Of a stretch of DNA of 64,000 nucleotides, positions 37,258-52,215 are shown one piece after another. Below the pieces are notes generated by a model. That model was given only the letters and a program-made list of their open reading frames with translations. It had not been told where the DNA came from and ran no database searches. Every line of letters starts with the position of its first letter. Within the stretch, counting starts at the first letter, position 1. The position numbers were made by a program, and so were the translations under genes. Source of the stretch: Bradyrhizobium sp. Y36 (GTDB taxonomy: Bacteria; Pseudomonadota; Alphaproteobacteria; Rhizobiales; Xanthobacteraceae); assembly GCF_002531575.1 (NCBI RefSeq), contig NZ_NWTI01000001.1, positions 455,501-519,500 of the forward strand, read 5' to 3'.

Positions 37258-37400
37258 CCTTCGCCTCTCCCCGCGGCGGGGAGAGGCCGACACGCGCAGC
37301 GTGGCGGTGAGGGAGAGTCTCCGCGAGTCCAACTGCTACCGTCTCCGCCGAGGCTCCCCCTTATCCCAACCCTCTCCCCGCAAGCGCGGCGAGGGGGAAT
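37258..37400. repeat. Family E repeat, two arms
   Basis: CTTCGCCTCTCCCCGCGGCG, GGGAGAGGC at the left and CCCTCTCCCCGCAAGCGCGG, CGAGGG at the right, with a divergent 60-base centre. It relates to the complete copies at 42460 and 42883. It lies in the LysR/permease promoter gap. Confidence 0.65.
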
Positions 37401-41244: not shown

Positions 41245-42464
41245 CCATGATCGACTGCGTCGAGAACCGGCTCCTCACCTCGCGCCGCGGCTTCCTGCTC
41301 GGCGGTGCCTCCTTCGCGGCCTGGGCTTACCTGCCGAAATTCGCGCGCGCCGCCGATGGGCGCGATCCCCGGTTGGTCGTGGTCATCCTGCGCGGTGCGC
41401 TGGACGGGCTTGCGACCGTCGCCCCGATCGGTGATCCCGACTATGCCGGCCTGCACGGCTCGATCGCGCTCGCCGCGGATGGCGTCCATCCCGCGATCAT
41501 GCTCGATTCCTTTTTCGCGCTGCATCCCGCCATGCCCGAGTTTTCGCGCATGTACCGCGACAAGCACGCCGCGGTGATCCACGCGGTGGCAACGCCCTAT
41601 CGCGACCGCTCGCATTTCGACGGCCAGGATGTGCTCGAAAGCGGCTATGCCGGCCCGGGCCGCGTGCAGTCCGGCTGGCTCAACCGCGCGCTGGAGGCGC
41701 TGCCGCGCGGCGAACGCGTGTCGAGCGGTCTTGCGGTCGGGCCCACCACCCCGCTGGTGCTGCGCGGCAACGCGCCGACCGTCGGCTGGGCGCCGGTCGC
41801 GTTGCCGCAGGCGGATGACGACACTGCGATGCGCCTCGTCGATCTCTATCGTCATCGCGATCCCGCGCTGGCCTCGGCGTTGTCGCAAGGCCTCCGGTTA
41901 GAGAAGGCCGCGAGCGGCGACGACATGAAGCCGAAGCCCGGCAATCAGGTCGCGCAGATGCGCCAGGTCGCGCGCGGCGCCGCCAAGCTGATGGCGGCGG
42001 ACGACGGCCCGCGCATCGCCGCGCTCGCTTTCGACGGTTGGGACACGCATGCCAATGAAGGCGGCCCGGTCGGGCGTCTCGCTTTCCTGCTCGGCGGGCT
42101 CGATGGCGCGCTCGCCGAATTCGAAACCGGTTTGGGCGATCGCTGGCGCGACACCGTCATCGTCGTCGCCACCGAATTCGGGCGCACCGCGCGCATCAAC
42201 GGCACCGACGGCACCGATCATGGTACGGGCACGATCGCGCTGCTCGCCGGCGGCGCGGTGAAGGGTGGTCGCGTCATCGCCGACTGGCCCGGCCTGAAGC
42301 CCGCCAACCTCTATGAGGCCCGCGACCTCAAGCCGACCACCGATCTCCGCGCCGTGATCAAGGGCGTGCTGCAGGGCCAATTCGGCCTGTCCGATCGCGT
42401 GCTGGCGGAAACGGTATTCCCGGACAGTGCAGCGGCACGGCCGATGCAGGGACTGGTAGCTTAA
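41241..42464 (+). CDS. DUF1501-domain protein with Tat signal
   Basis: A 407-residue protein. The N-terminus has a twin-arginine signal, TSRRGFLLGGASFAAWAYLP, ending near KFARAADG, so it is exported folded, probably with a cofactor or metal. The mature part has the alkaline-phosphatase-like DUF1501 fold: LVVVILRGALDGLATVAPIG, VATPYRDRSHFDGQDVLESG, TVIVVATEFGRTARINGT and TDHGTGTIALLAGG. The ATG overlaps the DUF1800 stop and has GAGGAG upstream. Its TAA stop is the first part of a 68-base repeat that recurs after the next gene. Confidence 0.93.
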   Translation: MTMIDCVENRLLTSRRGFLLGGASFAAWAYLPKFARAADGRDPRLVVVILRGALDGLATVAPIGDPDYAGLHGSIALAADGVHPAIMLDSFFALHPAMPEFSRMYRDKHAAVIHAVATPYRDRSHFDGQDVLESGYAGPGRVQSGWLNRALEALPRGERVSSGLAVGPTTPLVLRGNAPTVGWAPVALPQADDDTAMRLVDLYRHRDPALASALSQGLRLEKAASGDDMKPKPGNQVAQMRQVARGAAKLMAADDGPRIAALAFDGWDTHANEGGPVGRLAFLLGGLDGALAEFETGLGDRWRDTVIVVATEFGRTARINGTDGTDHGTGTIALLAGGAVKGGRVIADWPGLKPANLYEARDLKPTTDLRAVIKGVLQGQFGLSDRVLAETVFPDSAAARPMQGLVA

Positions 42465-42527
42465 CCTCTCCCCGCTCTTTGCGGGGAGAGGTCGGATGGC
42501 GCAGCCATCCGGGTGAGGGGCAGGGCA
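42460..42527. repeat. Family E repeat, copy R1 of an exact 68-base direct pair
   Basis: Starts CTTAACCTCTCCCCGCTCTT and ends GTGAGGGGCAGGGCA. It is identical to 42883-42950. It contains the stop codon of the DUF1501 gene at its left end and abuts the ATG of the DUF559 gene at its right end. Inner hairpins CTCTCCCCGC/GCGGGGAGAG and GGATGGC/GCCATCC. Confidence 0.92.
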
Positions 42528-42887
42528 ATGCGTGGCAACAACGAAAAACCCATCCGACTCGCGCGACGCTTGCGTGCCGATCAAACGGATGCAGAGACAC
42601 TCCTGTGGAATCGTATCCGCAATCGGCGGATCGATGGCCACAAGTTCGTCAGGCAGGAGCCGATTATCGGTTACATCTGCGACTTCGTCTGCCGTGAGAA
42701 GCGGCTCATCGTCGAAGTTGACGGCGGTCAGCACAATGAATCCGCAACAGATGCTGTTCGTGATAAGCGGCTAGCAGAGAAGGAGTACAAGGTACTGCGT
42801 TTCTGGAACAATGACATCCTTGGAAATATCGAAGGTGTTCTCACCGCCATTCAGACCGAGCTCGCGGAAGCAGCAGACGTACCTTAA
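42528..42887 (+). CDS. DUF559 (Vsr-like PD-(D/E)XK) endonuclease-domain protein
   Basis: A 119-residue protein from MRGNNEKPIRLARRLRADQT. The DUF559 fold is clear: TDAETLLWNRIRNRRIDGHK, FVRQEPIIGYICDFVCREKR, LIVEVDGGQHNESATDAVRD and YKVLRFWNNDILGNIEGVLT. The catalytic acidic residues correspond to Asp in YICDFVC and Glu in IVEVDGGQH, as in Vsr mismatch endonucleases. The gene is flanked by exact 68-base repeats, its start touching the first and its stop lying inside the second. A possible role in movement of the repeat is discussed in the findings. Confidence 0.9.
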   Translation: MRGNNEKPIRLARRLRADQTDAETLLWNRIRNRRIDGHKFVRQEPIIGYICDFVCREKRLIVEVDGGQHNESATDAVRDKRLAEKEYKVLRFWNNDILGNIEGVLTAIQTELAEAADVP

Positions 42888-42950
42888 CCTCTCCCCGCTC
42901 TTTGCGGGGAGAGGTCGGATGGCGCAGCCATCCGGGTGAGGGGCAGGGCA
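42883..42950. repeat. Family E repeat, copy R2 of an exact 68-base direct pair
   Basis: Identical to 42460-42527. The left end holds the TAA stop of the DUF559 gene, exactly as copy R1 holds the stop of the DUF1501 gene. Confidence 0.92.
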
Positions 42951-43043
42951 CACTATTGCCCAAATGGTAGTGCGCCCGACTCGCACAACGACAGTGCGCG
43001 GACCGCAACCTTCGCCTACAATTGAGACCGAACTCGTGGAGAC
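42951..43043 (+). pseudogene. Internally deleted relic of a DUF559 gene
   Basis: Follows R2 at the position that the DUF559 gene holds after R1. Its first half (CCCGACTCGCACAACGAC) resembles the 5' end of the intact gene (CCGACTCGCGCGACG), and its second half (CAATTGAGACCGAACTCGTG) resembles the 3' end (CATTCAGACCGAGCTCGCGG). The nuclease core of roughly 270 bases between them is missing. It is followed by a third, diverged family E repeat. Confidence 0.5.
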
Positions 43044-43104
43044 AGCCCCTCACCCCACCCTCTCCCCGTTAGAACGGGGCGAGGGAGTGAAGGAGCGGCG
43101 CCTC
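43044..43104. repeat. Family E repeat, diverged copy R3
   Basis: CCCCTCACCCCACCCTCTCC, CCGTTAGAACGGGGCGAGGG then AGTGAAGG...CCTCCCTCAC. It shares the CCTCTCCCCG/CGGGG-GAGG hairpin with R1 and R2 but not their exact sequence. Confidence 0.65.
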
Positions 43105-43132
43105 CCTCACTGCCCATTTACAGGAGACCCCC

Positions 43133-49880: not shown

Positions 49881-50088
49881 GTGCCAGGGCGTGCTTTCAC
49901 CTCGCCCCGCTGGGGAGAGGTGAAACACGGCCGACGGACCGATCTGATCTCATCACGCATTATAAAACTTGATCGAAGTGACGACGCACCGCAGCGACGT
50001 TTGATGCTTGCCAAATCTCGGGGACGGGCAGACCATCCGCGTTTGCCGACCCAATCATGGGCCGAGCTCCACACCAAGGAGGCGGCGA

Positions 50089-52165: not shown

Positions 52166-52215
52166 ACCCTCTCTCACCCTCTCCCCGCTCTTTGCGGGGG
52201 GAGGCAGTGGGAGAA
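52166..52215. repeat. Family E repeat, partial
   Basis: CCTCTCTCACCCTCTCCCCG, CTCTTTGCGGGGGGAGGCAG, TGGGAGAAGG. Shares the core CTCTCCCCGCTCTTTGCGGGG with R1 and R2 at 42460 and 42883. Confidence 0.7.

Follow-up and report, generated by a model that had tools for sequence, protein, structure and literature searches.

The closest described parallel to the locus reported here is the partnership of repetitive extragenic palindromic (REP) sequences, and of the inverted pairs that they form (REPINs), with the REP-associated tyrosine transposases (RAYTs). In the parts of this literature available to us, a resident RAYT gene is flanked by palindromic repeats whose inverted pairs are spread between genes (PMC3116915, PMC3733652, PMC8266576), and RAYTs are distinctive, single-copy genes whose phylogeny mostly matches the species tree (PMC3116915). 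Alphaproteobacterial CGTC palindromes lack a dedicated transposase, and the accessible text on them leaves their mobiliser open (Di Nocera et al. 2013, PMC3733652). Here we have analysed a stretch of 64,000 nucleotides from Bradyrhizobium sp. Y36 (contig NZ_NWTI01000001.1, positions 455,501 to 519,500 of the forward strand; hereafter the window), in which a DUF559 nuclease gene is bracketed by palindromic repeats. Judging from sequence comparisons, it is rather likely that this is a nuclease-repeat partnership of the REP/RAYT kind, in which a predicted nuclease of the Vsr/homing-endonuclease fold takes the place of the Y1 transposase, and that the window holds a resident copy. The association itself is directly observed; mobilisation by the nuclease is our inference.

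The likeness to REP elements and RAYTs, which an initial annotation of the window had proposed with a Vsr-like nuclease in the transposase's place, holds well. As in that system, insofar as the sections of those papers at hand describe it, the gene is distinctive, occurs once per type and tracks the species phylogeny, the repeats vary in number, and repeat variant and enzyme clade go together. The DUF559 system differs in its enzyme, which is predicted to be a PD-(D/E)XK nuclease and not a Y1 (HUH) transposase, and in its repeats, which by eye carry no GTAG (or CGTC) end tag and consist of two palindromes and a GGGTGAGGGG-like tail. The CGTC repeats (PMC3733652) and Br-REP1 and Br-REP2 (PMC5082802) are likewise abundant intergenic palindromes of Bradyrhizobium according to the portions of these sources that were accessible, but their sequences are unlike the DUF559 ends, and in the present data CGTC-like or Br-REP-like repeats go with GIY-YIG genes. 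The nearest named solved fold to our protein model is that of the homing endonuclease I-Bth0305I; unlike homing endonucleases, the DUF559 gene stands intergenically among palindromes at DUF1501-ABM and dnaN-recF, the two sites that were fully read, and no intron or intein was seen around DUF559 genes at the sites read. Vsr and Caulobacter VsrA have the same nuclease fold and the DUF559 domain in common with it, and the available part of the VsrA paper does not mention a repeat association (PMC12907096). We did not find the association between DUF559 genes and palindromic repeats described in the literature searched, outside of which subscription papers and preprints mostly lie, so that its absence in print is unproved.

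In the window, 68 identical bases stand before and after the nuclease gene (first and second left end in Table 1) with a start-to-start spacing of 423, as the initial annotation had reported. Extending the comparison to 72 bases (42456-42527 and 42879-42950) brings in one mismatch, and an exact repeat of 68 bases is not due to chance. The stop codons of DUF1501 (TAA, 42462-42464) and DUF559 (TAA, 42885-42887), correctly placed by that annotation at the starts of the copies, lie each two bases inside its copy, and the DUF559 ATG at 42528 directly follows copy 1, as had also been noted. According to Pfam, the nuclease gene matches PF04480 (DUF559) with E 9.5e-38 and its left neighbour PF07394 (DUF1501) with E 8.1e-47, and the right neighbour is an ABM domain gene. 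Repeat copy 1 folds on the + strand into two hairpins and a G-rich tail (-40.9 kcal/mol, z -4.2); a search for known RNA families gave two matches only, both far below the gathering scores. A BLAST-type search of its own genome listed six matches, among which one other was near full length (C11:631496, 93%).

The nature of the unit can be seen at the same site in relatives. The DUF1501-to-ABM stretch was compared in 105 loci (some fetched twice, and the window included), of which 36 were read. In the loci read, gaps of about 500 bases consist of a left end (LE), DUF559 and a right end (RE), gaps of 249-276 bases of LE, a spacer and RE without a gene, and longer gaps are composites in which one or two gene-less doublets accompany the gene unit. 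The unit is therefore a left end (two palindromes and GGGTGAGGGG), the DUF559 gene and a right end that is roughly the LE inverted; the DUF559 stop codon falls in the RE hairpin loop in L030 and L091 and further out in L047. By eye, the LE starts with CTTAACC or CTTACCC and finishes with GGGTGAGGGG or similar. The window gap of 672 bases holds LE and DUF559 followed directly by LE, spacer and RE, that is, an LE-DUF559 unit without its own RE stands directly before a gene-less doublet, which results in the exact direct repeats. The inverted right end and the gene remnants between the second LE and the RE are additions to the initial annotation, which had instead taken the gene plus one direct repeat as a cassette of 423 bases moving as a unit. 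The pair of exact direct repeats agrees with such a cassette, but relatives carry LE, gene and inverted RE in about 500 bases at this very site, the extra LE of the composites, and with it the second direct copy, belongs to the adjoining gene-less element, and gene copies follow their sites; the cassette was rejected on reading the DUF1501 site in relatives and we regard it as extremely unlikely.

The end of the DUF1501 gene, where the initial annotation had suggested a strain comparison, is filled in some genomes and empty in others. Of the named loci (the best 80 of 452), the fetched stretch included both neighbours in 65: a CGTC-type repeat stood alone in 38, LE-spacer-RE without a gene in 3 and a whole or partial DUF559 gene in 12, and the remaining 12 were classed as other, several of them resembling the same CGTC-type repeat by eye. 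At least 4 of the 15 named loci without the ABM neighbour in the fetched stretch carried DUF559. A Bradyrhizobium-like locus, with 94% protein identity to the window's DUF1501 end, was also found in a record titled 'Frankia sp. RB7' (L153, JAUEPE010000011.1), which is probably mislabelled or contaminated.

The association of DUF559 genes with palindromic repeats is general. We took the free-standing DUF559 matches of 60 Bradyrhizobium genomes, as a first batch of 113 genes and a second of 25, with fused copies represented by L003 only and L004 left out as the second half of the broken gene L002, and counted as bracketed those flanked within 300 bases by a repeat in direct or inverted orientation (E <= 1e-6). 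As controls we used 565 genes, which lie in forty 20-kb stretches taken from two genomes and were called by a custom gene finder rather than taken from annotation. With 3 of the 113 and 1 of the 25 genes dropped because their flanks were too short, 60/110 and 18/24 (78/134 altogether) were bracketed vs 8/565 controls, so the excess that the initial annotation had advised looking for was found, and again in the further genes. One of the eight bracketed controls is a REP-associated tyrosine transposase (NCBIfam E 1.7e-53; Pfam Y1_Tnp), which served as a positive control. A hairpin with a pyrimidine-rich 5' arm within 160 bases 5' of the gene was present in 102/113 and 15/25 (117/138) DUF559 genes vs 18/565 controls. 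Outside the genus, 29 loci from 29 other alphaproteobacterial families showed the upstream hairpin in 26 and bracketing in 13, and 26 loci of a phylum search (one of them Bradyrhizobium) in 19 and 9, respectively, the loci of both sets being the best-scoring of their searches and not random. Random windows in the same loci had the hairpin in 15/452, 2/290 and 15/260 cases (controls overall 1-6%), and the detector undercounts, as L405 and L409 show a hairpin by eye yet fail the rule. The bracketing and hairpin counts are not independent because the genes at one site are related; counted by site, bracketed genes occur at 12/16 and an upstream hairpin in at least one gene at 14/16. Chance or generic intergenic repeats are ruled out by the control genes and random windows. 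DUF559 matches were present in 86 of 249 genomes of the phylum, and no relative was found in viral contigs in one scan with a single protein, which reaches close relatives only. The own genome's third DUF559 domain (L003, G000:C22:85864-86157) is fused to the end of an apparent RNA methyltransferase gene, has no repeats around it and resembles long frames in many of the 60 genomes; it is probably a domesticated copy.

Regarding the protein, an AlphaFold2 model built from 14 sequences (mean pLDDT 81) is nearest, among solved structures, to NGO0050 (Z 14.8), which is endonuclease-like and of function not known, followed by I-Bth0305I (PDB 3r3p, Z 12.7, 93 residues, 2.2 A) and then by Vsr (Z 9.5 and 9.0), with a mitoribosome protein tied at 9.5. 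Of the 185 sequences in the alignment, 183-185 retain each of the residues E23, Q43, D52, E63, D65 and H69. The protein is predicted to have a Vsr fold with the catalytic-type residues E23, D52, E63, D65 and H69, as matched to Vsr residues by eye. For the window gene, the Pfam and NCBIfam matches were limited to DUF559-type entries and MTES_1575, with no Y1 (HUH) transposase among them, and the same profile library does recognise the RAYT of the control set. The Vsr fold in common, together with the DUF559 domain of Caulobacter VsrA, which is tied to a methyltransferase phenotype in the part of that work available (PMC12907096), would suit a Vsr-like mismatch endonuclease, that is, a repair nuclease beside which repeats moved by other means accumulate. 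Such a chance build-up fails on the 40-fold excess, the in-register ends and the clade-specific copy number, and we consider it quite unlikely.

The nuclease gene stays at fixed sites. The first batch fell into 16 syntenic sites, the largest with 27 genes, and in the protein tree the site label changes 15 times, the fewest that 16 sites allow. All but two sites form single clades, the exceptions being site 0, inside which site 2 falls and which may join two places in the synteny clustering, and site 6; clade M6 comprises sites 6, 9, 12 and 13 (support 0.31), with site 11 adjacent. Median dN/dS values of 0.08-0.25 at eight sites (with dS medians of 0.9-1.5, near saturation) show that the nuclease is under purifying selection. 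Over the time span of the genus the gene seems not to have moved, its copies following their sites, and the dispersed partner is the repeat and not the gene. A candidate for recent gene movement within a genome, L111 and L112 on the same contig (G011:C16), was rejected: they are identical over more than 3 kb around dnaN-DUF559-recF, so that they stem from a large duplication or a duplicate in the assembly, and the unit has not transposed.

This site fidelity bears on another explanation, in which DUF559 is a homing-type nuclease that cuts its own intergenic site in alleles where its gene is absent and is copied into them through recombination, the palindromes being part of the recognition site and spreading only as a by-product. 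GIY-YIG is a family known for homing and is also found at the dnaN-recF site, the closest named fold is that of I-Bth0305I, and the genes keep the same site across species, where they are present or absent. However, homing leaves the doublets at unrelated places and the clade-following copy numbers unexplained, and the gene is intergenic and not inside a conserved target, which makes this explanation unlikely.

The gene-less LE-spacer-RE doublets are the dispersed, non-autonomous partners. Those of the window type occur at five unrelated places (DUF1501, tex, G027:1633150, G002:7903948 and G028:C119), the last three with no neighbours in common with each other or with the DUF1501 or tex site, and at these five places the dispersed inverted palindromic pairs with a short spacer that characterize REPIN-like doublets are found. 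The tex-site doublets are present in five genomes (G000, G002, G014, G017 and G042, where G042:C66 is the tex site), and the tex site of other species has a near-empty gap (L431) or other repeats. A whole-element match at G022:C7:95422, with other neighbours, is a sixth place, outside the 16 elements of the spacer test that follows. In this anchored test, the bases beside LE and RE were matched in register against a consensus built from seven LE-gene-RE copies of the DUF1501 site. The permutation floor (p 0.0002) was reached at one or both ends in 14 of 16 gene-less elements, and p < 0.005 at both ends in 10 of 16; the 95-base interior of the window's own gene-less element keeps both DUF559 gene ends, each at the permutation floor. 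In a wrong-strand control on ten of the 16 elements (20 tests), no p fell below 0.039. In L121, L333 and L421 the 3' match is probably lost through a length difference of one base, and the 5' ends of L137 and of one L332 copy reached p 0.06-0.09 only. An earlier spacer test, with free local alignment and a shortened gene end, had been mixed, with tex-site elements mostly not significant, and is superseded by the anchored one. The window-type doublet thus derives, by internal deletion, from a coding element that has the same ends, similar to a miniature inverted-repeat transposable element (MITE). In L420 and L427, at the tex site, a CGTC-type repeat apparently lies inside the remains of a DUF559-type element as a nested insertion.

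Table 1. Features of the DUF559 locus (positions in the window; LE, left end; RE, right end)
Feature	Position	Strand	Remarks
LE of gene unit	42460..42527	+	Same arrangement 5' of DUF559 in relatives
Palindrome 1 of LE	42464-42492		
Palindrome 2 of LE	42493-42511		
LE tail GGTGAGGGGCAGGGCA	42512-42527		Abuts ATG
DUF559 nuclease gene, 119 codons	42528..42887	+	Predicted Vsr / I-Bth0305I fold
Second LE, left end of adjoining gene-less element	42883..42950	+	Overlaps DUF559 stop codon
Spacer of gene-less element	42951..43045	+	Ends match DUF559 gene start and end in register
RE, roughly inverse of LE	43046..43111	+	Begins CCCCTCACCC, hairpin 43058-43085, outer stretch; right border (about 43111) inferred from part common to tex site

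Elsewhere in the window, a further pair of pyrimidine-arm hairpins at 37263-37395 (GCCTCTCCCCG... and CCCTCTCCCCG...) resembles a gene-less doublet of another type, and single hairpins stand at 49895-49925 and 52178-52204.

Furthermore, nuclease clades have different LE variants, as judged by eye from the printed sites, and for clade M6 the number of repeats follows the presence of the cognate nuclease. An M6-type left-end pattern of 28 bases with up to 3 mismatches had 0-81 copies per genome in the 60 genomes, and none when read backwards. The 18 genomes that carry an M6 nuclease gene, either intact or broken, had 8-81 copies (median 18) and the 42 without it a median of 1 (Mann-Whitney p 2.7e-8), whereas eight other clades showed no relation to the M6-type copy number (p 0.17 to 1). 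After correction with a tex gene tree for 30 of the 60 genomes (12 with M6), p was 1.7e-6 at the best-fitting lambda of 0 and 2.4e-6 at lambda 1. Among the 52 M6-type copies of G008 there are 18 head-to-head pairs of REPIN-like form, at distances of 131-174 bases, and zero tail-to-tail pairs; the 20 M6-type stretches read have spacers of about 35-40 bases. The own genome's second DUF559 gene (L002, G000:C52:274019-274338) is frameshifted between M6-type ends, with 48 M6-type copies in the genome, and is a decaying nuclease with many repeats. Another function would be that of a regulatory leader, the upstream hairpin and tail controlling nuclease expression and the downstream copy serving as a terminator, with nothing mobile. 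The position of the hairpin just 5' of most of the genes, with the tail abutting the start codon, is what such a leader would show, but gene-less doublets at five unrelated places and a left end of M6 type repeated up to 81 times per genome are not, and we judge it very unlikely that the repeats have this function alone.

If the nuclease is indeed the partner of the repeats, it would bind the palindromic ends, which would probably be extruded or single-stranded while the DNA is replicated, and would nick or cut near the G-rich tail, and doublets might then be excised or copied to new intergenic places through host repair. It would work like RAYT/TnpA-REP, but as a PD-(D/E)XK nuclease without transposase-type strand transfer. 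Several observations weigh against such a partnership. The hairpin and tail could act in nuclease translation, and the LE may also control it because the tail abuts the start codon. At the largest site none of the 27 genes is bracketed, yet 26 have the upstream hairpin. Five genomes without the M6 nuclease have 48, 30, 19, 13 and 13 M6-type copies, and G002 has a doublet and no free-standing DUF559; therefore repeats outlive the gene or do without it. The link between the window's own repeat type and its nuclease clade (raw p 2.6e-5) is gone once two copies per gene unit are removed (p 0.11), and clade s8 (four genomes) also gave p 0.029 with the window-type repeat. By eye, the spacers of 19 M6-type doublets do not appear gene-derived, and that of L514 alone does so in part. 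Finally, no clear target-site duplication was seen by eye at the tex site or in the 20 M6-type stretches, where borders are old, and no insertion was caught in progress.

A second nuclease family shows a similar arrangement. GIY-YIG genes were bracketed in 23 of 50 cases (10 among the 30 that scored best and 13 among 20 further genes of four genomes, with UvrC-sized frames and already-fetched genes left out of the further set) vs 8/565 controls. Many of the bracketed small GIY-YIG genes have CGTC-type repeats, assigned to this type by eye, such as CGTCATTCCGGGG and TGTCGTCCCTGCGAACGCAGGGACCCATA (loci L246, L289, L445-L448, L450, L451, L453, L454, L457-L459, L462, L463 and, in part, L273-L288). 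Both families meet in the dnaN-recF gap (L230-L259 and the DUF559 loci of that site), for which 45 loci were available, some genomes being represented twice, and 21 were read. Its content varies by species: by length, 10 gaps are gene-less, 10 hold a GIY-YIG gene and 25 hold DUF559. In the gaps read, the gene-less ones contain CGTC-type or GTAGGGTGGGC repeats, GIY-YIG genes stand between inverted CGTC-type repeats and DUF559 between its own repeats. This is a turnover of different nuclease-repeat units at one place, and on the sequences compared the GIY-YIG nucleases are candidate partners of the CGTC repeats. With a likelihood that we place a little short of even, stand-alone DUF559 and GIY-YIG nucleases, whose folds are unrelated, may be the missing partners of the RAYT-less palindromic repeats in Pseudomonadota, each clade cutting and spreading its own hairpin.

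All these data suggest that an enzyme unlike known transposases helps common genomic hairpins persist and spread. They point to a concrete enzyme family for a large class of hairpins, that with pyrimidine arms and a GGGTGAGGGG-like tail, and also to GIY-YIG nucleases for the CGTC class. If this is true, the repeats would form a selfish class whose enzymology is nicking or cutting followed by host repair, and not transposition, DUF559 would gain a role after having been a domain of unknown function, and lasting partnerships between enzymes and repeats would be possible with nucleases other than Y1 transposases.

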